Below, piece by piece: positions 19,151 through 37,900 of a DNA stretch of 38,263 bases (its first letter is position 1; every line of letters begins with the position of its first letter). Made by a program: the position numbers and the translations under genes. Source of the DNA: Paracoccaceae bacterium (GTDB taxonomy: Bacteria; Pseudomonadota; Alphaproteobacteria; Rhodobacterales; Rhodobacteraceae); the NCBI GenBank assembly GCA_013214575.1, contig JABSSD010000178.1, positions 1-38,263 of the forward strand, read 5' to 3'. The notes beneath the pieces were generated by a model. The model was not told the origin of the DNA, did no database searches, and worked only from the letters and a program-made list of their open reading frames with translations.

Positions 19151-21339
19151 GGCAGGCGGCTGAGCAACAGCAGGCGCAAGTCGGAAGGATTGATCGGCTT
19201 GTGCAACAGGTCTGCACCGATGGTCTTGCACAGCGTCGCCAGTTCGGGATCCCGGTTGGCGGTGATCAGACAGGCGGGCAGCGGCCCGTGCCGTTGCCTG
19301 AGCTGGGCAATGGCATCGCTGCCCAGCAGACCGTCATCCAGTTGGTAATCGGCAATCACCAGATCCGGGGTGATGTCGACCTCTTGCAGCAGCGACATCG
19401 CCTCGCGCGCGCTGGCACAGGCAAAGACGTCGAGCCCCCAGGCCTCCAGGGCGACGGTCAGGGCGCTGCGCAACCCGCTGTCGTTTTCGATCAGCAGCAC
19501 CAGGGCTGACGGCAAATCGGCTTGGCCGTGACCCCTGGTCGGGGGAGGGTCCACCGCGACCTGAGGGTTTGACAGCGGCAGATCCACCGCAAACATGGTG
19601 TGGCCAGCCTGCGACCGTAGCTGTAACGGATGATCGAGCAATTCGCAGGCACGTTTAACGATGGTCAGCCCCAGACCGACGCCTTCGGTTGGGCGCGGCG
19701 GGGTGTTGAGGCGGTGAAATTCTTCGAATATGCGCTGGTGTTGGTCGCGGGGAATGCCGGGTCCGGTGTCATGGATCTCAACCCGCAGGGTCTTGCCACA
19801 GCGACGGGCCCCCACCAATATTTTTCCGCTGTCGGTATAGCGCACCGCATTTGAGATCAGGTTTTGCAGGATGCGGCGCAGGAAGGTGGCATCGCTGCGC
19901 ACCGTGGCGCCGGGCAGAACGATGCGAAAGTTGAGCCCTTTTTGCGCCGCCAGTGGCGCCAACTCATCGCTCAGCTGACCCAGCATATCCCCCAGCGCCA
20001 CATCTGTCAGGTCAACACTCACCTGGCCGCTGTCCAGTTTGGATATATCGAGCAGGGCCTGGAGAATGTCTTCGACCCCTGCCAGCGCATTGGTGGCCTT
20101 GTCCAGATGGCTGCGCAATTCCGGGGTGTGGAGGCCTTCGGCCAGAGACGCCATATAGAGTTTGGCCGCCGACAAGGGCTGCATCAGATCATGGCTGGCA
20201 GCGGCGACAAAGCGGGATTTGGAGGCATTGGCGCGCTCGGCATCGCTCAAAGCCGCCTCAAGCTCCAGAGTGCGTTCAGCCACCCGGCGTTCCAGCGTCT
20301 CGTTGGCCACGACCAGCGCCTGCGCCGCGGCGCGTTCGGTGGTAATATCGGTGAACGATATGACAAACCCGCCGTCGGGCATCTGCTGGGCAAAGGCGGT
20401 CAGCGCACGGGCGCCAATCAGCACCTCGAAAGACAGCGGCGCGCGCGTGTCCTTGCTGATCATCCAGGCGCGCAGCCGGGTCGCAGACTTGGCATCGGGA
20501 AACTGGCCGTGGTCGCGCAGAAACTGGTACAGCCGCTCGGCCCGACTGCCCAGTGCCATAAAATGCATCGGCAGGGTCAGCAACGCGCTGGCGCGTCGGT
20601 TGCTGCCGGCCAGAAGATTGTGAGAGTCGAAGATGCAGACCCCCTGATCCAGGTGGTCCAGAGTGGCGCGGATCAGCCGGGCCTGATCGTCCAGCAACCG
20701 GTGCCGCTCGCGTCGTTCCAGCCGCATCATGTCGGTGACATCGGTCTGCAGGATCACGGTGCCGCCGTCATGGGTGCGCTGCTCGCTGATCTGCAGCCAG
20801 CGCTGCCCCGAGATGCGGGTGTTGAACACCGCGTGTTTGTCGCGATGATGCGACATCCGCCGCTTGGCCCATTGCCTAGGGGAAACGCCGTTTGGCAACG
20901 CCAAGAAGGGACTGAGGGAGACCAGCTGCACATAGGTTTTAAAGCGAAGCCCCGGTTGCAGCTGCGGGTGTACGTCGCGCATCCATTTGCCAAACCGGCT
21001 GTTGCACATCACCAGGGTGTCACTGGCATTGAACAGCGCAAAGCCGTCGTGGATGGTTTCAATTGCGTTGCTCAGATCGGCCCGCGCCGTTTCGGTGGCG
21101 GCATTGGCCTGCGCCAGTTGGCTGTGGGTGAGGTTCAGCTGGTCCAGCGCCTGTTCCAGATCAAAGGTGCGATTGCGCACCTCGCCCTCTAGCAGCGCCG
21201 CCCTCTCAAACTGGGCATAGGCCAGCCCGGAATCCGAGGGGCTCTGCTCGGCCCGGCGCATCAGCGCCTCGGCGATCTTCAGCAATTTCTGGTTCTGCCG
21301 CTGCAGACTGTCGGTGGCGATGACCAGGGTGTGGCTCAT
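19135..21339 (-). CDS. hybrid histidine kinase with PAS domains and receiver (NahK-like)
   Basis: A 734-residue cytoplasmic kinase with no membrane segment. The order is an N-terminal coiled region (residues 1-90), a PAS-type domain (IETIHDGFALFNASDTLVMC), a second PAS (LDHLDQGVCIFDS.., ending in SFTDITTERAAA) and a coiled linker. Then come HisKA with His383 in AAASHDLMQPLSAAKLY, HATPase (RILQNLISNAVRYTD, DTGPGIP, GVGLGLTIVKRACELL) and a C-terminal receiver with Asp664 in VIADYQLDDG and Lys in LHKP. SHDLMQPL is typical of the Pseudomonas NahK/ErcS' kinase group. Its ATG overlaps the TGA of the FIST gene (ATGA), strongly suggesting coupled synthesis and partnership. It probably signals to the LuxR-type regulator of the same operon, directly or by phosphorelay. 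Confidence 0.88.
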   Translation of the reverse strand: MSHTLVIATDSLQRQNQKLLKIAEALMRRAEQSPSDSGLAYAQFERAALLEGEVRNRTFDLEQALDQLNLTHSQLAQANAATETARADLSNAIETIHDGFALFNASDTLVMCNSRFGKWMRDVHPQLQPGLRFKTYVQLVSLSPFLALPNGVSPRQWAKRRMSHHRDKHAVFNTRISGQRWLQISEQRTHDGGTVILQTDVTDMMRLERRERHRLLDDQARLIRATLDHLDQGVCIFDSHNLLAGSNRRASALLTLPMHFMALGSRAERLYQFLRDHGQFPDAKSATRLRAWMISKDTRAPLSFEVLIGARALTAFAQQMPDGGFVISFTDITTERAAAQALVVANETLERRVAERTLELEAALSDAERANASKSRFVAAASHDLMQPLSAAKLYMASLAEGLHTPELRSHLDKATNALAGVEDILQALLDISKLDSGQVSVDLTDVALGDMLGQLSDELAPLAAQKGLNFRIVLPGATVRSDATFLRRILQNLISNAVRYTDSGKILVGARRCGKTLRVEIHDTGPGIPRDQHQRIFEEFHRLNTPPRPTEGVGLGLTIVKRACELLDHPLQLRSQAGHTMFAVDLPLSNPQVAVDPPPTRGHGQADLPSALVLLIENDSGLRSALTVALEAWGLDVFACASAREAMSLLQEVDITPDLVIADYQLDDGLLGSDAIAQLRQRHGPLPACLITANRDPELATLCKTIGADLLHKPINPSDLRLLLLSRLPAAPA

Positions 21340-24426: not shown

Positions 24427-24479
24427 CAGATTGCTGATGGCATTGCGCTGACAAAGACATCTGCGAATTGGAGATCATC

Positions 24480-26168
24480 ATGGCCCCTTTGGATGACCGT
24501 AAAGGCGTTTGGAAATCCGGCAAAGGCAAAGGGCGCAAGACGCCCAAAGGCCGCCAGGTTGACGATACCGCACTGGAGCAGGTTCAGGCCCTGCTGGGTG
24601 AGCTACCGCGCAACCGGGATCTGTTGATCGAGTTTCTGCACCTGATCCAGGACCATTATGGCCACCTGAGTGGCGCCCATATCCGCGCCCTGGCTGAAAT
24701 CTTGCGCACCGGCCAGGCCGAGATTTATGAGGTGGCCAGTTTTTACGCTCACTTTGATGTGGTGCGCGAGGGTGAGACGCCGCCCCCGGCGCTGACCATT
24801 CGGGTCTGCGATTCCCTGTCCTGTGAACTGGCAGGCGCCGCGCAGTTGCAGCAGGCGCTGAAAGATGGGCTGGACGAAAGCCAGGTTCGCGTCTTGCGCG
24901 CCCCCTGCATGGGGCGGTGTGATACCGCGCCGGTGCTGGAAATCGGGCACAATCACATTGATCACGCCACGCCGGAAAAGGTGCAGGCGGCGATTGCCGC
25001 AAATGATATCCACGCGCATCTGCCGGACTATGAAGGTTTTGATGCCTATGTGGCCGAGGGTGGTTATGCCACGCTGAAAGATCTGCGGTTGAACGGCAAC
25101 TGGGAGGCGGTTCAGGCCAAGATCAAGGAGGCCGGTTTGCGCGGTCTGGGCGGCGCCGGATTCCCCTCGGGCACCAAATGGGGTTTTGTGCGTGCCAATG
25201 AGGGCCCGCGCTATCTGGCGGTGAACGGCGACGAGGGCGAACCCGGCACCTTCAAGGACCGCTACTATCTGGAGCGCACGCCACATCTGTTCCTTGAAGG
25301 CATGCTGATCGCTGCCTGGGCGGTCGAAGCCGAGACGGCCTACATCTATATGCGTGACGAGTATCCGGCGGTTCTGGAGATCCTCGCGACTGAAATTCGG
25401 GCGCTTGAGGATGCTGGCATTGTTGAGCCGGGCTATATTGATCTGCGCCGTGGCGCTGGCGCCTATATCTGCGGCGAAGAAAGCGCGATGATCGAAAGCA
25501 TCGAGGGCAAACGCGGCATGCCGCGCCATCGGCCGCCGTTTGTGGCGCAGGTGGGGATCTTTGGTCGCCCGACGCTGGTGCATAATGTTGAAACCCTGAT
25601 GTGGGTCGCACGGATCAACCGCGAAGGGCCGGAATGCCTGAACGCGGTTGAAAAGAACGGCCGCAAGGGGCTGCGGTCCTATTCGGTCTCCGGTCGGGTG
25701 AACAACCCCGGTGTCTATCTGCTGCCGGCCGGCTCGACCATCACCGACATCATCGAGACCTGTGGTGGCATGATCGAAGGTCACGCCTTCAAGGCCTATC
25801 AGCCGGGCGGGCCGTCCTCGGGATTGCTGCCGGCCTCGATGCACGATGTGCCGCTGGATTTTGACACATTGCAACCGCATGGCACCTTTATCGGCTCGGC
25901 TGCCGTGGTGGTGCTGTCGGATCAGGATTCTGCCCGTGACGCGGCGCTGAACATGCTGCGCTTCTTTGAAGATGAAAGCTGTGGCCAGTGCACACCGTGC
26001 CGAGTGGGTTGTGAAAAGGCGGTCAAACTGATGCAGGCGCCAAAATGGGATCAGGACCTGCTGGAAGAGCTGAGCGCCGCCATGGTTGACACTTCGATCT
26101 GTGGCCTGGGGCAGGCTGCGCCGAACCCGATCCGCCTGACCATCAAACATTTCCCGGATGAGGTATAA
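24480..26168 (+). CDS. fdh1B: NAD-dependent formate dehydrogenase, fused gamma-beta (diaphorase) subunit
   Basis: A 562-residue protein that passes electrons from the formate-oxidising subunit to NAD+. The N-terminal 150 residues are a NuoE-like thioredoxin-fold [2Fe-2S] domain (IYEVASFYAHFD, CDSLSCELAG, APCMGRCDTAPV). The rest is NuoF-like: GLGGAGFPSGTKWGF and AVNGDEGEPGTFKDRYYLE (NADH/FMN site), GAGAYICGEESAMIESIEGK, then [4Fe-4S] Cys501, 504, 507 in CGQCTPCRVGC and Cys near 541. In FdsGBA enzymes these are two genes; the fusion is characteristic of FDH1 of Methylobacterium. ATG 24480 lies six bases after GGAG and is preferred to TTG 24468. It is three bases upstream of fdh1A. Confidence 0.92.
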   Translation: MAPLDDRKGVWKSGKGKGRKTPKGRQVDDTALEQVQALLGELPRNRDLLIEFLHLIQDHYGHLSGAHIRALAEILRTGQAEIYEVASFYAHFDVVREGETPPPALTIRVCDSLSCELAGAAQLQQALKDGLDESQVRVLRAPCMGRCDTAPVLEIGHNHIDHATPEKVQAAIAANDIHAHLPDYEGFDAYVAEGGYATLKDLRLNGNWEAVQAKIKEAGLRGLGGAGFPSGTKWGFVRANEGPRYLAVNGDEGEPGTFKDRYYLERTPHLFLEGMLIAAWAVEAETAYIYMRDEYPAVLEILATEIRALEDAGIVEPGYIDLRRGAGAYICGEESAMIESIEGKRGMPRHRPPFVAQVGIFGRPTLVHNVETLMWVARINREGPECLNAVEKNGRKGLRSYSVSGRVNNPGVYLLPAGSTITDIIETCGGMIEGHAFKAYQPGGPSSGLLPASMHDVPLDFDTLQPHGTFIGSAAVVVLSDQDSARDAALNMLRFFEDESCGQCTPCRVGCEKAVKLMQAPKWDQDLLEELSAAMVDTSICGLGQAAPNPIRLTIKHFPDEV

Positions 26169-26171
26169 GCC

Positions 26172-28949
26172 ATGAGCAACTCGATCACCTTTACCCTCGA
26201 TGGCAAAGAAGTCACCGCTGAAGCGGGGATGAGCATCTGGGAAGTCGCCAATGGGCGTGGGCTGATAATCCCACATCTGTGTCACAAGCCGGCCCCCGGC
26301 TATCGCCCCGACGGCAACTGCCGCGCCTGTATGGTCGAGATCGAGGGCGAACGTGTATTGGCGGCCTCCTGTATCCGCGAACCTGCCGAGGGCATGGTGG
26401 TCACCACCAATAACCCCCGCGCCACCAGTGCCCGCAAGATGGTGATGGAACTGCTGGTCGCCGACCAACCCAAACAGGAAGAGGCGCACGACAAGTCGAG
26501 CCACCTGTGGGACATGGCGGCGCTGAACGGGATTTCGGACTCGCGCTTTCCCAAGCTGGAAGCGGGCCGTATCCCGTTGCTGGACGACAGCCATGTGGCA
26601 ATGTCGGTGAATCTGGATGCCTGTATCTCGTGCAACCTCTGTGTGCAGGCCTGTCGTGAGGTTCAGGTCAACGACGTGATCGGCATGGCCGGTCGTGGCC
26701 ACGGTGCCTATCCGGTGTTTGATATCGCCGATCCGATGGGCGAATCCTCTTGCGTGGCTTGCGGCGAATGCGTGCAGGCCTGTCCCACCGGGGCGCTGAT
26801 GGCCACGGCGGTGCTCGACGATGCCGGTCAGGGCGATTCAAAAGATTTTGACACTGAGACCGAAACTGTCTGCCCGTTCTGCGGCGTCGGCTGCAAGGTG
26901 TCGCTGAAGGTCAAGGACGGCAAGATCAAATCGGTTGAGGGCATCAACGGCCCGGCAAACGAGGGCCGTCTCTGCGTCAAGGGGCGCTTTGGCTTTGACT
27001 ATATCCACCACCCGCACCGGCTGACCAAGCCGCTGATCCGTCGTGATGATGCCCCCGCCAAGGGGCTGAACGTCGATCCCGGCAATCTGGGCACCCATTT
27101 CCGCGAAGCGACCTGGGACGAGGCGCTGGATCTGGCCGCCAAAGGTCTGGTCGATCTGAGGGAGACCCACGGTGGCCGTTCGGTTGCGGGCTTTGGCTCA
27201 GCCAAATGCACCAACGAAGAGGCCTATCTGTTCCAGAAGTTCATCCGTCAGGGGTTCAAGCATAACAACGTCGATCACTGTACCCGGTTGTGCCATGCGT
27301 CATCCGTGGCGGCGCTGATCGAAAACGTTGGCTCCGGCGCGGTGACGGCCACCTTCAATCAGATCGAGAATTCGGATGTGGCGATCATCATCGGCTCAAA
27401 CCCGATTGAAAACCATCCGGTTGCGGCGACCTATTTCAAACAGTTCACCAAACGCGGTGGCAAGCTGATTGTGATGGATCCACGCGGTGTCGGCATGCGG
27501 CGCTTTGCCGAAGAGATGGTGCAGTTCCGTCCCGGTGCCGATGTGTCACTGCTGAACGCGATCATGAATGTGATCGTCGAGGAAGAGCTGTACGATCAGG
27601 CCTATATCGAAAAATACACCGAGAACTGGGAGGCCCAGAAAGCCCATCTGGCGCCGTTCACCCCTGAGGCCATGTCGGAGATTTGTGGCGTCTCCCCCGA
27701 CCAGATACGCCGCGTCGCCCGGATCTATGCCAATGGCAAAGCGGCGCTGATCTTCTGGGGCATGGGCATTTCGCAGCACATCCACGGTACCGACAATTCG
27801 CGCTGCCTGATCTCATTGGCGCTGATGACTGGCAATGTCGGCAAACCCGGCGCCGGACTGCACCCGCTGCGGGGGCAGAACAACGTGCAGGGCGCCTCGG
27901 ATGCCGGTCTGGTGCCGATGTTCCTGCCGGATTATCAATCGGTGATGGATGACGGTATCCGCAAGGCGTTTACCGATGTCTGGGGCAGCGATGACTTCTC
28001 AAGCGAGAAGGGGCTGACCGTCACCGAGATCGTCGATCAGGTCTATGCGGGCAATATCAAGGGGATGTATATTCAGGGTGAAAACCCGGCAATGTCAGAC
28101 CCGGATGTGGAACACGCCCGCGATGCCTTTGCCAAGCTGGAGCTGCTGGTGGTGCAGGATATCTTCCTGACCGAGACCGCCAACTATGCCGATATCATCC
28201 TGCCGGCCTCAACTCTGTATGAAAAGAACGGCACCGTTTCCAATACCAACCGTCAGGTGCAGCGGGTGCGCCCCGCCGTCCCACCTCCGGGTGAGGCGCG
28301 GGAAGACTGGCTGATCACCACCGATCTGGCAAAGCGGATTGGCTTGAACTGGGACTATTCGGATGTGAGCGAAGTCTTTAACGAGATGAAGCTCAACATG
28401 AAGTCGCTGAACAATATCACCTGGGAGCGGTTGAAGACGGAGACGATCACCTATCCGTCGCTGACCCCGACAGACCCCGGTCAGGCGATTGTGTTTGGCG
28501 ATGGTTTCCCGCGGGCTGATGGCCGCGCCAAGTTTACCCCAGCCAGCGTGATTGCGCCGGATGAGGCGCCGGATGCCGAATACCCGATGATCATGACCAC
28601 CGGTCGTCAGCTGGAGCACTGGCACACCGGCTCGATGACCCGCCGGTCGCTGGTGCTGGACGCGGTCGAACCGGAGGCGAACTGTTCGCTCAACCCCAAA
28701 ACGCTGCGCCAGATGGGGGTCGAGCCGGGTGAGATGGTGCGACTGACCACCCGGCGTGGCTCTATCGAGATCATGGCGCGGGCGGATCGGGCCATCGCCG
28801 AGGACATGGTGTTTGTGCCCTTTGCCTATGTTGAGGCGGCCGCCAATGTGTTGACCAACCCGGCGATTGATCCCTATGGCAAGATCCCCGAGTTCAAATT
28901 CGCCGCGGTGCGGATTGAAAAAGTCGAGGGCCAGATTGCCGCCGAGTAA
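26172..28949 (+). CDS. fdh1A: formate dehydrogenase catalytic subunit (W/Mo-bis-MGD)
   Basis: A 925-residue subunit oxidising formate to CO2. The N-terminal [2Fe-2S] ferredoxin domain has IPHLCHKPAPGYRPDGNC then RAC. Two ferredoxin-type [4Fe-4S] motifs follow (CISCNLCVQAC near 155, CVACGECVQACPTGA near 195), then the Mop-type cluster CPFCGVGC with GRLCVKGRFG. The metal ligand is Cys374 followed by His375 in DHCTRLCHASSV, so it is a Cys, not a Sec, enzyme. Further cofactor motifs are IIGSNPIENHPVAATYFKQF and GNVGKPGAGLHPLRGQNNVQ. CTRLCHASSV and the fused partner point to the FDH1 type. No twin-arginine signal is seen, so it is cytoplasmic. Whether the metal is tungsten or molybdenum cannot be read from sequence. 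Confidence 0.95.
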   Translation: MSNSITFTLDGKEVTAEAGMSIWEVANGRGLIIPHLCHKPAPGYRPDGNCRACMVEIEGERVLAASCIREPAEGMVVTTNNPRATSARKMVMELLVADQPKQEEAHDKSSHLWDMAALNGISDSRFPKLEAGRIPLLDDSHVAMSVNLDACISCNLCVQACREVQVNDVIGMAGRGHGAYPVFDIADPMGESSCVACGECVQACPTGALMATAVLDDAGQGDSKDFDTETETVCPFCGVGCKVSLKVKDGKIKSVEGINGPANEGRLCVKGRFGFDYIHHPHRLTKPLIRRDDAPAKGLNVDPGNLGTHFREATWDEALDLAAKGLVDLRETHGGRSVAGFGSAKCTNEEAYLFQKFIRQGFKHNNVDHCTRLCHASSVAALIENVGSGAVTATFNQIENSDVAIIIGSNPIENHPVAATYFKQFTKRGGKLIVMDPRGVGMRRFAEEMVQFRPGADVSLLNAIMNVIVEEELYDQAYIEKYTENWEAQKAHLAPFTPEAMSEICGVSPDQIRRVARIYANGKAALIFWGMGISQHIHGTDNSRCLISLALMTGNVGKPGAGLHPLRGQNNVQGASDAGLVPMFLPDYQSVMDDGIRKAFTDVWGSDDFSSEKGLTVTEIVDQVYAGNIKGMYIQGENPAMSDPDVEHARDAFAKLELLVVQDIFLTETANYADIILPASTLYEKNGTVSNTNRQVQRVRPAVPPPGEAREDWLITTDLAKRIGLNWDYSDVSEVFNEMKLNMKSLNNITWERLKTETITYPSLTPTDPGQAIVFGDGFPRADGRAKFTPASVIAPDEAPDAEYPMIMTTGRQLEHWHTGSMTRRSLVLDAVEPEANCSLNPKTLRQMGVEPGEMVRLTTRRGSIEIMARADRAIAEDMVFVPFAYVEAAANVLTNPAIDPYGKIPEFKFAAVRIEKVEGQIAAE

Positions 28950-29048: not shown

Positions 29049-30479
29049 TCAGGCGATGTCCGCTGAATGCCAAACATTCTTAATCGTCATGTAGTTATCC
29101 AGACCTTCGGTGCCACCTTCGCGGCCATAACCACTGGATTTGACGCCACCAAAAGGCGTTTCCGGCATTGAAGCTTCAAGAGTGTTGATCGACAAGTTGC
29201 CAACTTCGACAGTGTCGATCATATGGTCGATATAGTCGGCCCGATTGGTGAAGGCATAACCCGCCAGACCATATGGCACCGAATTTGCCTTTTGAATGGC
29301 GTCCTCCAGACATGAAACCGGGTTGATGACAGCAATGGGACCAAAGGGTTCTTCCTGCATGATATCTGCGTGATCCGGAACGTTTGTCAGAACTGTTGGC
29401 TGGAAGAAATAGCCTGTGGTGCCGTGCCGGGCGCCACCGGTCCTGACCTCGGCCCCGGCGGCGCGGGCGTCCTCGACCTGTTGCGTCAGTGCAGGAACCC
29501 GGCGTTCATTGGCCAGCGGCCCCATCTCTACCCCATCATCCATACCATTGCCGACCACGGTGGCCGCGGCACGTTCAACAAATTTCTCGGTAAAGCTGTC
29601 AAAGATGCTTTCATGCACGAAAAACCGGGTGGGCGAGGTGCAGACCTGTCCGGCGTTGCGCATCTTTCGCATGGCGCCGCTGATAGCGGCCTTTTCCACA
29701 TCGGTATCTTCGCAGACGATCACCGGCGCATGGCCGCCCAATTCCATCAGGACGGGAGTCATATGCTGCGCGGCCAATGTGGTCAAATGACGTCCCACTG
29801 CGGTAGATCCAGTGAAGGCCACAAGGCGAACAGAGCTCTGTGGGATCAGGTGATCAGAAATTTCGGAGGGGGTGCCAAACACCAGATTCAGAACCCCAGC
29901 CGGCAATCCGGCCTCTGCAAAGGCGCGCACAATGTGGATGGCGCCAGCAGGCGTTTCCTCAGCCGCCTTGAGGATGATTGAACATCCCGCAGCCAACGCC
30001 CCACCGATTTTACGCGCAGGCTGGCTCATCGGGAAATTCCACGGCGAGAAAGCGGCTACGACGCCGAGGGGTTGGTGATGAACGGTGAATTTCTGACCGC
30101 GCGCTGCCGGGATGACCCTGCCGTAGGTTCGCATCGCTTCGCCGGCATCCCACTCAAAAAATTCGGCACCGCGGATGACTTCTTGGCGCGCCTGGGGCAA
30201 TGGTTTGCCATGTTCCGCAGTGATCGCCAGCGCGATCTCCTCCTGACGGGCACGCAGGATCGCGGCAGCCCGCAGAATGGTATCCGCGCGGTCGCGTGGC
30301 GCGGTTCTGCTCCAGATTCGAAACCCCTTTTCAGCCGCCTCTAATGCGTCATCCAGGTCTTTGCGCTCAGCATGTGGCAACCGCCCGATTTCTTCTTCGG
30401 TCGCGGGGTTCACCACCGGCATATCCCGCGCAGTTTTGCGCCACTTGCCGCCGATAAATAGGTCTAGATTAGGGTACAT
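29049..30479 (-). CDS. NAD(P)-dependent aldehyde dehydrogenase
   Basis: A 476-residue soluble aldehyde dehydrogenase oxidising an aldehyde to a carboxylate. Family signatures are VVAAFSPWNFPMSQPARKIG, TGSTAVGRHL, the catalytic Glu in MELGGHAPVIV, the catalytic Cys near residue 279 in NAGQVCTSPTRFFV, EEPFGPIAVI and PFGGVKSSGYGREGG. It looks closest to succinate-semialdehyde dehydrogenase-like enzymes, but the true substrate is open. Given the neighbouring 3-hydroxyanthranilate dioxygenase, a semialdehyde from ring cleavage (such as 2-aminomuconate semialdehyde) is a candidate. It is last in a minus-strand group after a LysR gene, with its own 104-bp upstream gap containing inverted repeats. 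Confidence 0.92.
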   Translation of the reverse strand: MYPNLDLFIGGKWRKTARDMPVVNPATEEEIGRLPHAERKDLDDALEAAEKGFRIWSRTAPRDRADTILRAAAILRARQEEIALAITAEHGKPLPQARQEVIRGAEFFEWDAGEAMRTYGRVIPAARGQKFTVHHQPLGVVAAFSPWNFPMSQPARKIGGALAAGCSIILKAAEETPAGAIHIVRAFAEAGLPAGVLNLVFGTPSEISDHLIPQSSVRLVAFTGSTAVGRHLTTLAAQHMTPVLMELGGHAPVIVCEDTDVEKAAISGAMRKMRNAGQVCTSPTRFFVHESIFDSFTEKFVERAAATVVGNGMDDGVEMGPLANERRVPALTQQVEDARAAGAEVRTGGARHGTTGYFFQPTVLTNVPDHADIMQEEPFGPIAVINPVSCLEDAIQKANSVPYGLAGYAFTNRADYIDHMIDTVEVGNLSINTLEASMPETPFGGVKSSGYGREGGTEGLDNYMTIKNVWHSADIA

Positions 30480-30499
30480 GAGCCACGTGCCTCCTTAAT

Positions 30500-30557
30500 T
30501 GTATTCCTGCAGATCATAAAAATTCGGCCACTTCTTCAAGTGAATTAGCCGAATACA
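30500..30557. promoter_or_regulatory. nested inverted repeats upstream of the aldehyde dehydrogenase gene
   Basis: ATTCGGC at 30522-30528 and GCCGAAT at 30548-30554 are inverted copies. Between them CACTT (30529-30533) and AAGTG (30538-30542) form an inner stem. Further out, TGTATTC (30500-30506) and GAATACA (30551-30557) are also inverted. They lie in the 104-bp gap between the LysR gene and the dehydrogenase, a likely place for LysR binding sites. The outer and inner arms compete, so alternative pairing or binding states are possible. Confidence 0.4.
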
Positions 30558-30583
30558 GGTATAAGAAAGCGGAATATCTGAAG

Positions 30584-31528
30584 CTACATTGCCTGTGCCG
30601 TGTGATGCAGCGCCTGCAAAAAGGCGCGTCCGGCAGGCGACAGACTCTCGTTGCCTCGGTAAGACAGGCCCACCGGTCCGGCGCCAAAGGGAACGGTCCA
30701 GTTGAGCCTCTTTAACAACCCGTTTGCGACGTCCTCGGCAGCAACATGCGCAGGCATCAGGCTGATCAGATTGCGGGACCGCAAAAGCGCGCGATTGGTA
30801 AGATATGAGACCGATTCAACATAGTGAGGCGGCGCATATTGCGCCTGGCTGACAAAGAACTGATCAACCTGTCTGCGGAGCGTGGTCTCTAGTGGCGGCA
30901 ATATCCAACCAAAGGGCTTGATTTTCTCAAAGGACACCGACGGCTCGCTGGCCAGCGGATGGTGATTGCCGACAACCGCATGGATGCGCTCATCGTATAG
31001 CTTTTCCTGGGTAATTTTATCCCTGTGGCGCTGCGATGGAAGCCGCCCCACCACCATATCAATCTCACCTGACAGCAAGGCAGGCATCAGAACCTCATTG
31101 GTGCCTTCGGTTATTTTTATCGCAACTTTCGGCCGTTCCGTTAACAGGATCTCGATCGCCCCCGGCAACAAGCTGGGAGAGGCGGCCAGCAGGGTGCCAA
31201 TGACCACGCGGCCACTGCTGCCCTCGTTCAGATCATCCAGCTCCTGTGCGGCACTTGAAACCTGGGCAAAAATCAGTTTTCCGTGACGGATCAAGGTATC
31301 GCCGAATACCGTCGGGATGACACCGCGATTGGTGCGTTGAAACAGCGTGACCTCGAAATCCAGCTCGAGATCCTGGATCATCTTGGTGGCCGCAGGTTGC
31401 GACACACCCAACTCGCGCGCCGCATTCTGAATGTTACCGTGGCGGCCGACGGCGACCAGCAGCCGCAGTTGCCGCAGCTTTAACCGGCTAAGAGCACGAT
31501 CAACAATTCGGGAGTGTTTGGCTGCCAT
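30584..31528 (-). CDS. LysR-family regulator of the catabolic island
   Basis: A 314-residue regulator with helix-turn-helix LKLRQLRLLVAVGRHGNIQN, AARELGVSQPAATKMIQDLE, LFQRTNRGVIPT and a typical ligand domain (VVIGTLLAASPSLLPGAIEI, GEIDMVVGRLPSQRHRD, SLMPAHVAAEDVANG). HGNIQNAA..LGVSQPAATK resembles the GbpR/PcaQ-like group that often controls aromatic or sugar-acid breakdown. Its start is nine bases after the stop of the aspartate-dehydrogenase-like gene, so they share a transcript. It probably controls this operon, the aldehyde dehydrogenase downstream and the divergent plus-strand genes. Confidence 0.9.
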   Translation of the reverse strand: MAAKHSRIVDRALSRLKLRQLRLLVAVGRHGNIQNAARELGVSQPAATKMIQDLELDFEVTLFQRTNRGVIPTVFGDTLIRHGKLIFAQVSSAAQELDDLNEGSSGRVVIGTLLAASPSLLPGAIEILLTERPKVAIKITEGTNEVLMPALLSGEIDMVVGRLPSQRHRDKITQEKLYDERIHAVVGNHHPLASEPSVSFEKIKPFGWILPPLETTLRRQVDQFFVSQAQYAPPHYVESVSYLTNRALLRSRNLISLMPAHVAAEDVANGLLKRLNWTVPFGAGPVGLSYRGNESLSPAGRAFLQALHHTAQAM

Positions 31529-31537
31529 GGTGAATGT

Positions 31538-32329
31538 CTACAACATAATAGGGTTGGTGAGTTGCTCTAGCTTACTGACCACACTCATGGCTGCCAGCGC
31601 AGAACTGCGTGGGTTGTCAGGCAAAGATTTGCCTCGGATCTGGAACTGAAAGCTGCCAAAATCACCGACCGCCTCAATCTCGTGGATATTCTCTGAGATG
31701 GCGGCATCTGCAATCAGTTTGACGCTTGTTTTCTCAAACCCCAGTCCCGCCAGTGCCACCGCTGCGGCAACATTGGCGTTTTTGGGGTATGCTAGGGCTG
31801 CCTCGCGTGCCGATCCCTCAAAATGCACGACGGCGCCGGTGGTCAGGGCCTCAAGGTCAAGCACCTGTTCGGCAGGCGATCCCGCCCATCCCTTGGGTGG
31901 CTTTCGTCCCACATAGGTGACGCTTGCCAATTGTCCGGTCCGCGCCGCCTGCAGGCAATCCAGAGCGCCAATGGCGCCGCTTGCAAGAAAAAGCTTGGCG
32001 TTGCCCTGCAGGGCGGCTTCCTGCAATTTGTCATACAGTTTCTGGTCGGCCAGGGCGCCAATAGAAACCGTGATCAGATTGGTGCCGCGTTGCAAAATAT
32101 CTGCGCCATAGGCCGACAAAGCACTGTGTCCGGCGCAGTCGATCATCAGATCGAGAACGTCCGGCAATTCGCTGACGGAGTAGACCTGCTGTGCGGCCCC
32201 GGGTTCCCCCCGACCTTCCCCCCGGCGTTCCGGCCGCAGCAAGACCGCGCCAAGGCTATGGTTGGATGACGCAATATGCGCTCTCACATGGCGCGCGATC
32301 GCCCCGTTGCCGATAATTCCTACAATCAT
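31538..32329 (-). CDS. L-aspartate dehydrogenase-like protein
   Basis: A 263-residue NAD(P)-dependent enzyme. The N-terminus MIVGIIGNGAIARHVRAHIA is a Rossmann dinucleotide loop. The C-terminal catalytic domain has the family signatures YPKNANVAAAVALAGLG, ENIHEIEAVGDFGSFQFQI (with the active-site His) and GKSLPDNPRSSALAAMSVV. The family interconverts L-aspartate with iminoaspartate/oxaloacetate, either feeding quinolinate/NAD synthesis or acting in amino acid breakdown. ATG 32329 follows GGAGG and is preferred to an upstream start at 32455. In this setting it may act on an aspartate-like intermediate or recycle the ammonia of an amino-aromatic compound. It is divergent from the DHDPS-like gene. 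Confidence 0.85.
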   Translation of the reverse strand: MIVGIIGNGAIARHVRAHIASSNHSLGAVLLRPERRGEGRGEPGAAQQVYSVSELPDVLDLMIDCAGHSALSAYGADILQRGTNLITVSIGALADQKLYDKLQEAALQGNAKLFLASGAIGALDCLQAARTGQLASVTYVGRKPPKGWAGSPAEQVLDLEALTTGAVVHFEGSAREAALAYPKNANVAAAVALAGLGFEKTSVKLIADAAISENIHEIEAVGDFGSFQFQIRGKSLPDNPRSSALAAMSVVSKLEQLTNPIML

Positions 32330-32375
32330 TGCCGCCTCCGTTTGACAGATGCTGTGTAGCTTTAACTCAGATCGA

Positions 32376-32436
32376 GTTGCTATAGTTTTTTTTGATACCT
32401 GAATTGGGTGTTTCGAATTGGTCGTTGCTATGGTTT
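32376..32436. promoter_or_regulatory. 13-bp direct repeats in the divergent promoter region
   Basis: GTTGCTATAGTTT at 32376-32388 and GTTGCTATGGTTT at 32424-32436 match at 12 of 13 positions with starts 48 bp apart. They lie in the 157-bp gap between the aspartate-dehydrogenase-like gene (minus) and the DHDPS-like gene (plus). They could be recognition and activation sites for the LysR regulator of this cluster, or overlapping promoter parts for the two directions. Confidence 0.4.
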
Positions 32437-32486
32437 GCGCGCAGAAAGGCGGCAAAGACCGCCGACACTCATATAAGGTTCACGCC

Positions 32487-33440
32487 ATGAAATACTCAAA
32501 ATCCGAGGCCAAAGAATACGCCCGCGAGCATATGCGCGGCATTTGGGCCGCTGCTCTGAATCCGTTTCACCAGGGTGGCTCGCTGAACGAGGCAGGCCTG
32601 CGCAGCAACATCCGCCACTGGATTGATGATCTGGAAATACAGGGCCTGTTCATTGCCGGCAAGCAGGGCGAATTTTTCTCCATGAGCCTTGAAGAACGCA
32701 AACGCAATATGACGCTTGCGGTTGACGAATGTGGCGACAAAGCCGGCACAATCATGTCGATCTCGGATCAGAACGTGAATACGGTGCTTGAGCTGGGCCA
32801 GCATGCTCAGGACTGCGGCGCCGACTATGTGGTGGTGCACGCGCCGGTTCTCAGCTTCTGCAGCGACCGAAACGAAGTTCTGTTCAATTACTACAAGTAT
32901 CTGTGTGACCGTCTGGATATCGGCATCGCCATGTGGAGCCATCCGGACAGCGGCTACCTGATGGAGCCGGAAACCTGTGCGCGTATCGCTGAGCTGCCAA
33001 ATATCATGGCGATCAAATATTCAGTGCCACGAGAGATGTATAAACGGCTGAGCCAGATGATTGGCGACAAAATCCACGTTTCAACATCCGTTGAGGATGA
33101 TTGGCTGGATAACATCGAGGAGCTGGACTGGAAGCTCTACCTCTGTTCATCGCCGCCCTATCAGTTGCAGACCAAACATGACAAGCGGATGCACGAATAC
33201 ACCCAATTGGCGTTTCAGGGGCAATTTGCCGAGGCCCGCAGGGTGCGCGACAGCCTGAACCCGGTTCGCCAGGCGATCAAAAGTACCAAGCCGGGTGGCA
33301 AGCCCACGGCGCATGGCAAATATTGGCAAGAGCTTCTGGGGCAGGTCGGCGGGGCGGTTCGCCATCCGATGCTGGAGCTGACAGAGGCTGAAAAAGAGAC
33401 CGTTCGAACCGCGTTCGAGGGATGTGGCCTGAAGCTGTAA
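32487..33440 (+). CDS. diverged DHDPS/N-acetylneuraminate-lyase-family protein
   Basis: A 317-residue class I aldolase-fold (TIM barrel) protein. The Schiff-base lysine is Lys177 in NIMAIKYSVP. Start GIWAAALNPFHQGGSLNEAG and RSNIRHWIDDLEIQGLFIAG follow the family plan. Two hallmark motifs differ: the pyruvate-carboxylate loop G-T-T-G-E is GKQGE here (residues 58-62), and the catalytic Tyr of the YNxP motif is replaced in AMWSHPDSGYLM (Trp150). It is therefore not a lysine-pathway DHDPS and may not use pyruvate in the usual way; a hydratase-aldolase, dehydratase or decarboxylating role is possible. ATG 32487 is chosen over 32418 because upstream residues do not fit the family. A DMT permease gene follows after 27 bp. 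Confidence 0.82.
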   Translation: MKYSKSEAKEYAREHMRGIWAAALNPFHQGGSLNEAGLRSNIRHWIDDLEIQGLFIAGKQGEFFSMSLEERKRNMTLAVDECGDKAGTIMSISDQNVNTVLELGQHAQDCGADYVVVHAPVLSFCSDRNEVLFNYYKYLCDRLDIGIAMWSHPDSGYLMEPETCARIAELPNIMAIKYSVPREMYKRLSQMIGDKIHVSTSVEDDWLDNIEELDWKLYLCSSPPYQLQTKHDKRMHEYTQLAFQGQFAEARRVRDSLNPVRQAIKSTKPGGKPTAHGKYWQELLGQVGGAVRHPMLELTEAEKETVRTAFEGCGLKL

Positions 33441-33467
33441 CCGCGCGCCCGAAATGGACCGGCGCTG

Positions 33468-34349
33468 ATGTCAGGGGAAATCCTTGTTCTGTTGTCGGCG
33501 CTGTTCTACGGCGCCGCGAGTGTTGCGATTGTTCAGGGTCGTGGCGCCAAAGGTCATGACAATGGTTTGCTCCTATCGGTCCTTCTGACGGCGGTGATCA
33601 GTGGTCTGATCTGGCTGCGGTTCGGGCATGTGGGGCTGGAGCAGTTCGAAACTGCAGAAGGGCGCTGGGGCCTGTTGATCTTTGCGCTGGCTGGGATGTT
33701 CTCGATCGTCTTTGGTCGTATCAGCCTTTATGTGTCCACCGAGCGGCTTGGCGCCGTCCGTGCCAGCATTCTGAGACGTTTGACGCCGGTATTTGCGGTG
33801 CCATTTGCCTTTGTGATCCTGGGCACGGTTCCAGGGCTGAGAGAGACGATTGGCGGAGCAATCGTTTTGGCCGCAGTGCTTTTGTTTTTCGGACCTGCGG
33901 GCCGCCTGCCTCCCGGGGCGCTATCGGGCTATATTTGGGCCGTTGGATCCGCCGCGTTCTATGCGATGGCCTATTGCCTGCGCAGCCTGGGGATGGAGAG
34001 CATCCCGGCTCCTGCTTTTGGTACATTTGTTGGCGCCATGACTGGGGTGGGCTGGCTGAGTATCAGAGCCGGTATCCGTAGAGGGGGGCGGGGTTCTGTA
34101 ATGCGGTCGCTTGCCCAAAACGGGCGGTGGCAATGGCTGGCGGCGCTGTCACTCAGCATTGGCCAGATGCTGCAATTCTTTGCTCTCAGCTCGGCCTCGG
34201 TGCCGGTGGTTGCGGTTCTCGGAACGCTCGAAGTCATTTTCGCCGCCGCACTTGCGACCCATTTGGCGGGCAATAGCCGCCAACCCAAAGCCAGGATAGT
34301 GCTCTGCGTGGGCCTTGCCTTGATTGGAACCGCATTGCTTGTCCGGTAG
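33468..34349 (+). CDS. EamA/DMT-superfamily permease
   Basis: A 293-residue, very hydrophobic inner-membrane protein with about ten predicted helices in two EamA repeats, the drug/metabolite transporter layout. Segments include EILVLLSALFYGAASVAIVQ, LLIFALAGMFSIVFGRISLY, IGGAIVLAAVLLFFGPAG, FYAMAYCLRSLGMESIP and SVPVVAVLGTLEVIFAAALA. Such proteins mostly export amino acids or small metabolites. It lies 27 bp after the DHDPS-like gene and 127 bp before the dioxygenase gene. It may export a toxic or excess intermediate while the TRAP system imports the substrate; that is inference. Confidence 0.85.
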   Translation: MSGEILVLLSALFYGAASVAIVQGRGAKGHDNGLLLSVLLTAVISGLIWLRFGHVGLEQFETAEGRWGLLIFALAGMFSIVFGRISLYVSTERLGAVRASILRRLTPVFAVPFAFVILGTVPGLRETIGGAIVLAAVLLFFGPAGRLPPGALSGYIWAVGSAAFYAMAYCLRSLGMESIPAPAFGTFVGAMTGVGWLSIRAGIRRGGRGSVMRSLAQNGRWQWLAALSLSIGQMLQFFALSSASVPVVAVLGTLEVIFAAALATHLAGNSRQPKARIVLCVGLALIGTALLVR

Positions 34350-34476
34350 CAATCAAATCTTCGATGTCGGCGTTTCCAATCTGGTCTCGATATAAGATTT
34401 TCCGATATCTACTTGCCGCAATACTCTTTGCTGTTATGGCCAAAATCTCTCAGGGTTTGGCGAACAGGAGGGTCCC

Positions 34477-35037
34477 ATGAATTTGCATCCAACACTGACA
34501 CCGTTCAATTTCCAGAAATGGGTTGAAGACAATCAGGACAAACTGAAGCCGCCGGTTAACAATCAGTTGCTGCACAAAGAAGGCGATATGATTGTCATGG
34601 TTGTTGGCGGCCCCAACACGCGCGTTGATTTTCACGATGACCCGGTCGAGGAATGGTTTTTTCAGATCAAGGGCGACATGGTCATTAAGATCGCAGAGGG
34701 CGGCAAGATCTACGACGTTCCGGTGCGTGAGGGCGAAGTATTCCTGATGCCTCCGCGTACCATCCACGCGCCTCAGCGGCCAAACGAGGGTCTGGGGATT
34801 GTGGTGGAAGCGCCGCGTCAACCCGGCATGATGGAAGGCTTTGAGTGGTACTGTTTCAACTGTGAAACACGGGTGCATCGCGTTGAGGTATCGCTGGGAG
34901 GGCCAGAAGGTATCGTGACCGCGCTTCCGAAAATCTATGAGGCATTCCACAACGACATGGCTGCGCGGACCTGTCCCGAATGCGGCACCATCCACCCCGG
35001 TAAAGGCAAACCGCCCGAAGGCTGGGTCAAAACTTAG
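34477..35037 (+). CDS. nbaC: 3-hydroxyanthranilate 3,4-dioxygenase
   Basis: A 186-residue cupin-type ring-cleaving dioxygenase converting 3-hydroxyanthranilate and O2 to 2-amino-3-carboxymuconate semialdehyde (ACMS). All expected residues are visible: iron ligands His53, Glu59 and His97; substrate-binding Arg49, Arg101 and Glu111; and the rubredoxin-like second metal site Cys126, Cys129, Cys166, Cys169 (CFNC and CPEC), which is typical of bacterial and fungal enzymes. AGGAGGG lies seven bases before ATG 34477. No kynureninase, ACMS decarboxylase or 2-aminomuconate deaminase is in the window. The TRAP genes follow after 29 bp. ACMS can also cyclise on its own to quinolinate. The symbol follows the nitrobenzoate pathway (haaO is used elsewhere). 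Confidence 0.93.
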   Translation: MNLHPTLTPFNFQKWVEDNQDKLKPPVNNQLLHKEGDMIVMVVGGPNTRVDFHDDPVEEWFFQIKGDMVIKIAEGGKIYDVPVREGEVFLMPPRTIHAPQRPNEGLGIVVEAPRQPGMMEGFEWYCFNCETRVHRVEVSLGGPEGIVTALPKIYEAFHNDMAARTCPECGTIHPGKGKPPEGWVKT

Positions 35038-35057
35038 ATTTGAAACAAAAGACATAA

Positions 35058-36041
<984 letters not shown>

Positions 36042-36060
36042 ATAACAAAAAATCTATGAC

Positions 36061-36094
36061 AAAGGGACGCGGGTCAATCCTGCGTCCTTTTTTT
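36061..36094 (+). terminator. intercistronic hairpin between dctP and dctQ
   Basis: AAAGGGACGC at 36061-36070 pairs with GCGTCCTTTT at 36082-36091 (one G-U pair), followed by a T-run to 36094. This is an intrinsic-terminator shape inside the operon. It probably lets only part of transcription continue, giving many binding proteins per membrane complex, or it stabilises the dctP transcript end. Confidence 0.75.
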
Positions 36095-36110
36095 GGGGAA
36101 AGGGGGGTAT

Positions 36111-36644
36111 ATGCTATATCAGCTATCACGATCTTGGGCGAAACTGGAGCTTTGGTGTTCGGCCTTTCTGGCATTAATGATCACCCTCTTGATCCTTTTG
36201 AACGTGGTGACCCGCTATCTTGGCGCGGCACTGTTCTGGGTCGACGAACTGGCCATCTACGCGATGGTCTGGATGACATTTTTTGGCGCTTCGGCGGCAA
36301 TGCACTACCGAACATCGGTTTCAATAACCTTGCTCACTGACGCGGTGCCCCCAGCGGCCAAGGCCATCATCGAAAAACTGGTCGATCTGATCGTGTTTGC
36401 CTTTGCACTTGCGGTGGTGTGGTTTTGCTGGCGCTGGTTCTCGCCGCTTGAGCTGGTCCGGGCCGGGTTTGACACGGTGGCGTTTCAGGGCGCGACGTTC
36501 AATTTCATCTATGCTGAGCCGACCTCGACGCTTGGGCTGCCGAAATACATGTTCTGGTCGGTGATGTGGTTCTTTGCTTTTGGGGCGACGCTTCATTCCG
36601 CTGTGCACCTGTTGTGCTGGCCAGCTCGGGAGGCAGAGCAATGA
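36111..36644 (+). CDS. dctQ: TRAP transporter small permease subunit (DctQ family)
   Basis: A 177-residue inner-membrane protein with four predicted helices, the DctQ plan: CSAFLALMITLLILLNVVTR, FWVDELAIYAMVWMTFFGAS (with the conserved W-x-D-E-L), DLIVFAFALAVVWFCWRWFS and YMFWSVMWFFAFGATLHSAV. ATG 36111 follows AGGGGGG and is preferred over TTG 36093, which overlaps the hairpin. Its TGA overlaps the ATG of the large permease gene. Confidence 0.9.
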   Translation: MLYQLSRSWAKLELWCSAFLALMITLLILLNVVTRYLGAALFWVDELAIYAMVWMTFFGASAAMHYRTSVSITLLTDAVPPAAKAIIEKLVDLIVFAFALAVVWFCWRWFSPLELVRAGFDTVAFQGATFNFIYAEPTSTLGLPKYMFWSVMWFFAFGATLHSAVHLLCWPAREAEQ

Positions 36645-37900
36645 CTGCGATCGTTTTCCTTGCCACATTGATCCTGTCGGTCCCTGTGGCCATCGTCCTA
36701 GTCATCGCCGCTATCTGGTACATTTGGGAAAGCGGCAATACGGTGCTCTATGACAGTATCGCCCTGAAAATGTTTGGTGGGCTGGAGAACTACGGTCTGT
36801 TGGCAATTCCGCTGTTTATGCTCACAGGAGAGCTGATGAACGAAGGCGGCATGACAAAGCGGCTGATCAATGCAGCACGGGTTTTTGTCGGCGGCTTTCG
36901 CGGTGGTCTGGCCTATATCAACCTTCTGGCCAACATGTTCATGGCGGCGATCATTGGCTCTGCCACGGCGCAGATCGCGGTTATGTCGCGGGCCATGGTG
37001 CCGGCCATGGAGGAAGAAGGCTACGATAAGGGATTTGCCGCCGCGACAACGGCTGCGGGTGGGCTGCTTGCCCCGGTTATCCCGCCCTCAATGATGTTTG
37101 TGATTTACGGCGTGTTGGCGCAAATCCCCATTGGCGAAATGTTCATGGCCGGAATTATCCCCGGTTTTCTTTTGGCCTCGTCCTTCGCCCTGGTTATTAC
37201 TGTCATCGGCTGGATACACCAATTTCCCAAAGGCAGCTGGCTAACCCGCAGGGAGGCCGTCAGCGCCCTTCGCGACGCCCTGCCGGCCCTGCTGATCCCG
37301 TTCTCGATCATTGGTGGCATTCTGTTTGGCATCGCCACACCAACCGAATCCGCAGCCATCGCGTCTCTGATCGCCTTTCTTGTTGGCTGGCTCTTTTATG
37401 GCGAGTTGAAGCCATCGCATCTGGGCGAGATGTTCAAGCGCACCGCCGCCAACGCTTCGATGATCATCTTCATGATTGCCGCGGCCAGTGTGTTTGGTTG
37501 GGTCATCATCTATGAAGAGGTTCCGCAGAAACTGGCGGGGCTGATTACCTCGGTCACATCCGATCCGTTCCTGTTCCTGCTGATCGTCAATGCAGCGTTG
37601 CTGGTGGTGGGCATGGTGATCGACGGCATCGCCGCAATCATCCTTGTCACCCCGATTTTGTTGCCGATTGCCATGGGGTCCTACCACATCAGCCCCTATC
37701 AATTTGGGGTGGTGATTTGCCTGAACCTTGCCCTGGGCCTGTTGACGCCGCCGGTTGGGATCGGGCTGTATATCGCCTCTGCGATGAGCAACACAACACC
37801 CGGTGCAATTCTGAAAGCTCTGTGGCCATTCCTGCTGGCGGTTGCGGTGATTCTCGTTTTGCTGAGCTATTTCCCGGTGCTGTCGCTGCTGCTGATCTGA
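36641..37900 (+). CDS. dctM: TRAP transporter large permease subunit (DctM family)
   Basis: A 419-residue transporter subunit with about twelve helices that carries substrate with sodium ions. Conserved regions are LAIPLFMLTGELMNEGGMTK, ANMFMAAIIGSATAQIAVMS, AATTAAGGLLAPVIPPSMMF, GILFGIATPTESAAIASLIA and NLALGLLTPPVGIGLYIASA, the repeated DctM motifs. ATG 36641 overlaps the dctQ stop (ATGA), showing translational coupling; an upstream start at 36566 would run through dctQ. It ends the plus-strand cluster that begins with the DHDPS-like gene. Confidence 0.93.
   Translation: MTAIVFLATLILSVPVAIVLVIAAIWYIWESGNTVLYDSIALKMFGGLENYGLLAIPLFMLTGELMNEGGMTKRLINAARVFVGGFRGGLAYINLLANMFMAAIIGSATAQIAVMSRAMVPAMEEEGYDKGFAAATTAAGGLLAPVIPPSMMFVIYGVLAQIPIGEMFMAGIIPGFLLASSFALVITVIGWIHQFPKGSWLTRREAVSALRDALPALLIPFSIIGGILFGIATPTESAAIASLIAFLVGWLFYGELKPSHLGEMFKRTAANASMIIFMIAAASVFGWVIIYEEVPQKLAGLITSVTSDPFLFLLIVNAALLVVGMVIDGIAAIILVTPILLPIAMGSYHISPYQFGVVICLNLALGLLTPPVGIGLYIASAMSNTTPGAILKALWPFLLAVAVILVLLSYFPVLSLLLI

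Follow-up and report, generated by a model that had tools for sequence, protein, structure and literature searches.

A gene cluster for a probable variant of 3-hydroxyanthranilate catabolism in Rhodobacteraceae and other Proteobacteria

In the lower pathway described for kynurenine and 2-nitrobenzoate, 3-hydroxyanthranilate (3HAA) is degraded by 3-hydroxyanthranilate 3,4-dioxygenase (3HAO), 2-amino-3-carboxymuconate semialdehyde (ACMS) decarboxylase (ACMSD), 2-aminomuconate semialdehyde dehydrogenase (AMSDH), a RidA deaminase, a hydratase and an aldolase. Both the ACMSD route and quinolinate are described in fungi (PMC7842363). Here we analyzed a cluster at positions 29049–37900 of contig JABSSD010000178.1 from a Paracoccaceae bacterium (GCA_013214575.1), the whole 38,263-nt stretch being referred to as the window. 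A 3HAO gene is accompanied there by genes for a dihydrodipicolinate synthase (DHDPS)-like protein, an aspartate dehydrogenase (AspDH), an aldehyde dehydrogenase (ALDH), a LysR regulator, a DMT permease and a tripartite ATP-independent periplasmic (TRAP) transporter, all present where a first-pass annotation had placed them. We class the cluster as a variant of 3HAA catabolism; the grouping is real and wider in occurrence than that annotation reported.

Occurrence of the module and choice of the lower pathway

In a family sample of 248 genomes (one per genus), the queries for the DHDPS-like protein and for 3HAO matched 31 genomes each; when two weak matches (G153, 27% identity; G128, 30%) were left out, the two genes occurred in the identical 30 genomes. 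The grouping greatly exceeds what chance would give (Fisher 2e-39; 2e-36 if both weak matches are taken as discordant; shared ancestry uncorrected). It is not unique to this strain, a concern raised by the first-pass annotation, as it recurs across Alphaproteobacteria and Gammaproteobacteria. The two genes lay at most 15 kb apart in 25 genomes and on separate contigs in five, of which G220 is a fragmented assembly and G232 probably reflects a contig break. Identities of the DHDPS-like protein and of 3HAO to the window proteins were uncorrelated across 29 genomes (Spearman 0.26, P = 0.17; in G038, 86 and 57%), and the dioxygenase has therefore probably been exchanged, with its presence kept. 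On plasmids, all 47 records with the DHDPS-like gene also carried 3HAO, and 16 of these plasmids were typed as conjugative; two further plasmids, both from Vibrio, had a close 3HAO and no DHDPS-like gene.

A second sample comprised 348 Pseudomonadota genomes of at least 90% completeness. 3HAO was present in 26 and the DHDPS-like gene in 10, all among those 26; seven of the 10 belonged to the window's own family. ACMSD occurred in nine genomes, again all among the 26 and none among the 10. The ACMSD profile was built from five ACMSDs in the neighborhoods of other 3HAO genes (best PDB matches ACMSDs, about 1e-153), and scoring was limited to the best six to eight first-look candidates per genome. 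The nine true genomes scored at least 500 bits, the next amidohydrolases at most 245 bits. None of the 248 family genomes exceeded 245 bits, and the profile gave no match at E 1e-20 in the window genome, nor in the 30 module-bearing family genomes. The earlier suggestion that the 3HAO product follows a different route is thus well supported, both by the recurrence of the grouping and by the failure to find ACMSD. We are confident that a replacement module stands in place of the ACMSD route.

A canonical counterpart was seen on a Vibrio nigripulchritudo plasmid (L196, 1–9558). Identity to the window is 63, 43, and 57% for the TRAP proteins (63% for the solute-binding protein DctP), 71% for 3HAO and 42% for LysR. 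The same stretch holds the canonical lower pathway: ACMSD (62% to a reference), RidA, a dehydrogenase of the 2-hydroxymuconic-semialdehyde type, dmpE, dmpG and acylating acetaldehyde dehydrogenase. A search of the plasmid at a 1e-60 limit found no DHDPS-like gene. Judged by sequence, uptake and ring cleavage are kept between Vibrio and the window, whereas the predicted lower pathway differs as a block. That ACMSD, AMSDH-type and RidA genes take the place of the module there supports the substrate class proposed earlier. So do three gammaproteobacterial loci (L120, L125, L143) in which 3HAO, KynU and kynurenine 3-monooxygenase (KMO) genes stand beside those for ALDH, AspDH and the DHDPS-like protein, with a tryptophan 2,3-dioxygenase (TDO) homologue added in L125 and L143. 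Family tests for these loci were made on L125 (KynU, 435 bits against a cut-off of 246; TDO, 376, just under 391; KMO, best PDB match 4e-81). The other possibility raised by the first-pass annotation, a role in pyridine carboxylate metabolism, was not supported.

One genome scan returned 523 DHDPS-like relatives; the 80 best, together with the window, gave 81 loci, and 18 of the 80 were cut by contig ends. Searching these with tblastn, low-identity matches included, recovered LysR, AspDH and 3HAO in 67 loci each, ALDH in 55, the TRAP proteins DctP and DctM in 39 and 40, EamA in 26 and KynU in 18.

The module genes also share a candidate operator. A 17-bp palindrome, TAT-N11-ATA, was seeded by palindrome count and its matrix trained only on regions between AspDH and the DHDPS-like gene or the molybdenum oxidase gene described below; scored on these training regions, it exceeded 7 bits in 57 of 66 and in none of 66 shuffled regions. 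In test regions, none of which overlaps any training region, the operator preceded 49 of 59 3HAO lead genes and 38 of 43 ALDH lead genes, compared with 15 of 451 other lead genes and none of 431 other non-lead genes of the same loci. Seven other genes diverging from a module gene were counted apart, and four had the operator. The 81 loci together hold 207 sites of at least 8 bits, and 166 of these precede a module gene. Where 3HAO lies on a contig separate from the DHDPS-like gene (ten tried), the operator was found before it in L045 (15.1 bits), L049 (16.8), L058 (7.2) and L050 (11.3), and not in L041 or L055. In the window itself, a matrix scan placed sites between the AspDH and DHDPS-like genes (32381–32397, 16.4 bits, a region within the training set), 69 bp before 3HAO (34391–34407, 17.1 bits) and, more weakly, about 80 bp before ALDH (30560–30576, 7.3 bits). 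Outside the cluster the scan gave two additional sites, of 7.9 and 9.3 bits; three shuffled windows contained, between them, one site of at least 10 bits. The LysR gene (30584–31528, − strand) encodes a PcaQ-like regulator (TIGR02424, 222 bits, under the PcaQ cut-off of 304). We infer that the module genes form one regulon under this one LysR, which would bind the motif. In distant loci the signal fades: no 7-bit operator was present in the Chelatococcus or Paroceanicella plasmid loci, the Sinorhizobium plasmid locus has two sites of 7.1–7.2 bits (one before the DHDPS-like gene), and LysR identity falls to 25% in Sinorhizobium and Chelatococcus. At least six sites occur in the Vibrio stretch, which in AT-rich sequence shows little.

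Enzymes and transporters of the cluster

The 3HAO gene (34477–35037, + strand) encodes a protein above both NCBIfam cut-offs (PRK13264, 244 against 220 bits; TIGR03037, 219 against 146 bits). Ten residues mapped via alignment to 1yfu were invariant in all 30 sequences. Among these we take H53, E59 and H97 to be metal ligands, R49, R101 and E111 to contact the substrate, and Cys 126, 129, 166 and 169 to form a rubredoxin-type site. On cut-offs and residues together, the window dioxygenase is classed as a 3HAO.

The ALDH gene (29049–30479, − strand; Pfam Aldedh, 525 bits) is proposed to serve in oxidation of the 3HAO product. The protein belongs to the succinate/alpha-ketoglutarate-semialdehyde type (closest in the PDB to 9zh8 and 5x5t) and is not an AMSDH (2-aminomuconate/2-hydroxymuconate semialdehyde dehydrogenase), scoring 294 bits on TIGR03216 against a cut-off of 693, compared with 761 bits for the ALDH of a canonical cluster. 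In 23 loci the large subunit of a molybdenum (Mo) oxidase of the xanthine-dehydrogenase type, a family assignment made on one member, lies directly upstream of the DHDPS-like gene. ALDH (at least 60% identity) was found in 54 of the 81 loci, Mo oxidase in 23, both together in none and neither in four, and tblastn recovered the identical locus sets. Two of those four, L135 and L127, respectively hold an ALDH fragment at a contig end and start beside the module. On the DHDPS tree the two states require six changes, against 20 when shuffled.

The DHDPS-like gene (32487–33440, + strand) encodes the proposed carbon-carbon lyase. Its predicted model is a regular TIM barrel with the fold of the DHDPS/NAL superfamily; families that the fold search did not name are not thereby excluded. 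The Schiff-base lysine (Lys176), which aligns with that of NAL, was invariant in 29 of 29 sequences, as was Trp149 at the position of the conserved catalytic Tyr of the superfamily. In the carboxylate loop, GKQGE, the residues Lys58 and Gln59 were invariant, and the extra Lys58 would suit a tricarboxylate substrate. According to PMC13398020, the catalytic Tyr is conserved across the superfamily except in KdaD, where a catalytic Glu replaces it, and KdgD is a decarboxylating dehydratase. The window protein has Trp149 rather than that Glu, and fell far under the cut-off of all curated models matched (DapA, 72.5 against 206 bits; NanA, PRK04147, 81.1 against 281; KdgD, 70.5 against 374). It is a predicted superfamily member outside every named subfamily tested.

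The AspDH gene (31538–32329, − strand) exceeds both the NF009828 cut-off (331 against 177 bits) and that of the equivalog model (NF009827, 249 against 226 bits). H215 (numbering of A6) was invariant in 25 of 25 sequences, and cut-off and conserved His together class the protein as an L-aspartate dehydrogenase. In four of the 14 loci in which AspDH was missed, the gap is near a contig end. Distant versions of 34–40% identity occur in Sinorhizobium, Chelatococcus and Paroceanicella, on the same strand and within about 8 kb of the DHDPS-like gene and 3HAO. Separately, the region downstream of the module on Pukyongiella plasmid p1 (L193, 17703–24567) carries an aspartate ammonia-lyase gene and two genes of the Asp/Glu racemase family, a single case suggestive of aspartate metabolism.

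The TRAP system is encoded on the + strand by genes for the solute-binding protein DctP (35067–36041), the small permease DctQ (36093–36644; Pfam DctQ, 77 bits) and the large permease DctM (36641–37900; TIGR00786, 377 against a cut-off of 268 bits). The nearest PDB structures to DctP are 4paf, 4pai and 4pbh (504 bits). We take 4paf to be Ruegeria pomeroyi SPO1773, and the three are presumably aromatic-acid complexes of one Ruegeria protein, holding simple benzoates. Other organisms carry TctABC (tripartite tricarboxylate) or branched-chain-type ABC transporters within or next to the module (L192, 6073–9023; L075, L082, L110 and L197–L199), perhaps as alternatives to TRAP.

Of 36 alphaproteobacterial module genomes, 33 had a KynU above its cut-off. 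A KMO profile that scored five of six comparison genomes positive at 699 bits or more (G474 was negative) matched none of the 36, and the 3HAA of these Alphaproteobacteria is therefore probably imported; kynurenine as its sole origin is not supported. It probably enters via TRAP, or via ABC transporters in other loci, or derives from imported 3-hydroxykynurenine. In L105, KynU is accompanied by a TDO homologue and a formamidase-like hydrolase.

An EamA/DMT-family transporter gene (33468–34349, + strand; Pfam EamA, 70 bits) lies between the DHDPS-like gene and 3HAO. Adjoining the cluster (24468–28949) are genes that we take to encode NAD-type formate dehydrogenase beta/gamma-like and alpha subunits. 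Relatives of 62–64% identity flank a canonical 3HAO-ACMSD cluster in L181 but were found in no other locus searched, and formate dehydrogenase was therefore not counted as part of the cluster. Near the module in L110, a gene cut by the locus end (20568–20945) matches bifunctional salicylyl-CoA 5-hydroxylase, perhaps belonging to an aminobenzoyl-CoA branch.

The proposed route and its alternatives

Most likely, ALDH or Mo oxidase, the DHDPS-like protein and AspDH would jointly take over from ACMSD, AMSDH, the RidA deaminase, the hydratase and the aldolase. In loci with a TRAP system, that system probably imports 3HAA, whose ring 3HAO would open to ACMS. ALDH or Mo oxidase would convert ACMS to 2-amino-3-carboxymuconate, a compound without the aldehyde required for cyclization to quinolinate. 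Using its Schiff-base lysine in the manner of hydratase-aldolases, the DHDPS-like protein would then hydrate at C4 and cleave between C3 and C4. As oxidized ACMS is a 3-substituted iminosuccinate, such cleavage after hydration would yield the AspDH substrate iminosuccinate (or oxaloacetate) as C4 product, and malonate semialdehyde as C3 product. AspDH would form L-aspartate by reducing the C4 product. The malonate semialdehyde would pass to acetyl-CoA through ordinary methylmalonate semialdehyde dehydrogenase (MMSDH), for which 32 of the 36 alphaproteobacterial module genomes scored above the cut-off. The roles that the first-pass annotation had given the DHDPS-like protein, as carbon-carbon lyase, and AspDH, as handler of the amine, would fit this route. 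We infer all reactions beyond ring cleavage, as well as the imported compound.

As a whole statement, we lean somewhat toward the view that the cluster encodes a full lower pathway for 3HAA, used instead of the ACMSD route and including the proposed cleavage. The chances of the particular C3–C4 cut into a C4 compound and malonate semialdehyde appear evenly balanced. Rather short of even, and tentative, is the fullest version taken jointly: that ACMS has a third fate beside decarboxylation and cyclization, in which its aldehyde is oxidized, a Tyr-less DHDPS-superfamily lyase cuts C3–C4, and four enzymes thus assimilate an aromatic amino acid, nitrogen included, as aspartate and malonate semialdehyde, with roseobacters, other Alphaproteobacteria and certain Gammaproteobacteria relying on this instead of the ACMSD route.

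Several observations weigh against the proposed route, the KMO result above among them. 3HAO was missing from 14 of the 81 loci, the rest of those genomes not having been searched for it, and seven of the 26 3HAO genomes had neither the DHDPS-like gene nor ACMSD (five of family f46, plus G416 and G518; in f46, three clearly readable stretches carry 3HAO-KynU-KMO and no ACMSD). Ten loci lacked AspDH despite about 10 kb of sequence upstream of the DHDPS-like gene (L074, L099, L106, L107, L109, L114, L121, L130, L136, L142). Neither oxidase lay near the module in L116 and L137; the other Mo oxidase subunits (Fe-S, FAD) stood beside the large subunit in L119 only, and strongly supported branches of the DHDPS tree force just one of the six ALDH/Mo swaps. 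MMSDH lay inside just two of the 80 named loci, which may be chance. With Trp149 instead of the catalytic Tyr, ordinary aldolase chemistry is not to be assumed. Finally, AspDH could have an additional role in NAD synthesis, since only two of the 36 alphaproteobacterial module genomes have a NadB above its cut-off of 452.75 bits. Three more genomes reached 432–451 bits, and the remaining matches, mostly at 326–346 bits and of SdhA length, are probably SdhA; most of the 36 may thus be without the aspartate oxidase step.

The missing Tyr and the loci without AspDH would suit a different use of the same module and substrate, in which the DHDPS-like protein decarboxylates and/or deaminates 2-amino-3-carboxymuconate, general enzymes follow, and AspDH only recycles nitrogen; KdgD decarboxylates and KdaD is likewise without Tyr (PMC13398020). 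However, the C6 product would require a tautomerase, a hydratase and an aldolase. These were not recognized among the gene clusters recurring in several loci, where not every neighbor is annotated, whereas the canonical Vibrio set does carry dmpE, dmpG and acylating acetaldehyde dehydrogenase. With the shared operator and wide co-occurrence of AspDH also against it, we regard this scheme as unlikely.

The genomic data leave the order of oxidation and cleavage unfixed, and the DHDPS-like protein could cleave ACMS itself to malondialdehyde, a C3 dialdehyde that ALDH or Mo oxidase would then oxidize. Malondialdehyde is reactive, which counts against this order. According to PMC10143591 and PMC7842363, ACMS cyclizes spontaneously, making early oxidation of its aldehyde the more useful order. 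Cleavage first is therefore improbable.

Another amino- or hydroxybenzoate, rather than 3HAA, could be the compound imported via TRAP in Alphaproteobacteria. The failure to find KMO there would agree with this, as would the presumed simple-benzoate complexes among the DctP relatives and the place of the window 3HAO in a divergent group, 54–64% identical to the other 3HAO group. Yet in Vibrio a TRAP system of this kind and a 3HAO of 71% identity accompany ACMSD, an AMSDH-type dehydrogenase and RidA, KynU-like genes are present in 18 of the 81 loci (and over the cut-off in 33 of 36 genomes), and the other 3HAO group also accompanies close DHDPS-like genes, as in G038. We give such a substrate little credence.

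Production of quinolinate for NAD, with ACMS cyclizing spontaneously and AspDH acting as a NadX that feeds iminoaspartate to NadA, appears very improbable. AspDH does belong to the NadX-containing family, NadB is scarce as described above, and L125 carries NadA near 3HAO; but this scheme offers no role for ALDH or Mo oxidase, the DHDPS-like protein or TRAP, no KMO was found, the five probable-NadB genomes retain the module, and the Vibrio counterpart is plainly catabolic. A standard ACMSD route run from elsewhere in the genome, with the grouping incidental, is rejected as next to impossible given 0 of 248 family genomes, with the best six to eight candidates per genome scored, and the wide gap between 500 and 245 bits.

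No description of this 3HAA route was found in full-text searches of the open-licence literature, and an article on Roseobacter aromatics (PMC12442348) contained none of five related terms in a word search. If the proposed route is true, textbook tryptophan and 3HAA catabolism would gain an unrecognized branch in widespread marine bacteria and on conjugative plasmids, the module also being present in some soil bacteria. Genomes seemingly unable to finish 3HAA breakdown would be complete, and it would be explained how module-bearing organisms manage without ACMSD. A function would also be assigned to a DHDPS-like family with more than 500 relatives in one genome scan, labeled in the annotated records consulted merely "dihydrodipicolinate synthase family protein", beside an ALDH annotated as "NAD-dependent succinate-semialdehyde dehydrogenase".

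Comparison with known systems

The kynurenine/2-nitrobenzoate lower pathway has 3HAO, the substrate class, LysR and TRAP in common with the window, which has ALDH or Mo oxidase, the DHDPS-like protein and AspDH for ACMSD, AMSDH, RidA, hydratase and aldolase. Trans-o-hydroxybenzylidenepyruvate hydratase-aldolases (NahE, PhdJ) share the TIM barrel and Schiff-base lysine of the DHDPS-like protein, for which a like action on an unsaturated alpha-imino acid is proposed. The DHDPS-like protein differs from them in Trp149, the GKQGE loop and its proposed substrate, and is not classed with them. KdgD and KdaD with alpha-ketoglutarate-semialdehyde (KGSA) dehydrogenase offer a common superfamily and a common pairing with an ALDH of the succinate-semialdehyde/KGSA type; the window protein is far under the KdgD cut-off and its partner gene is 3HAO. 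NadX-type L-aspartate dehydrogenase is of the same family as the window AspDH, with the invariant His in an NIH-type motif, whereas the window AspDH sits in a predicted aromatic-acid regulon and NadA was seen near AspDH in L125 only.

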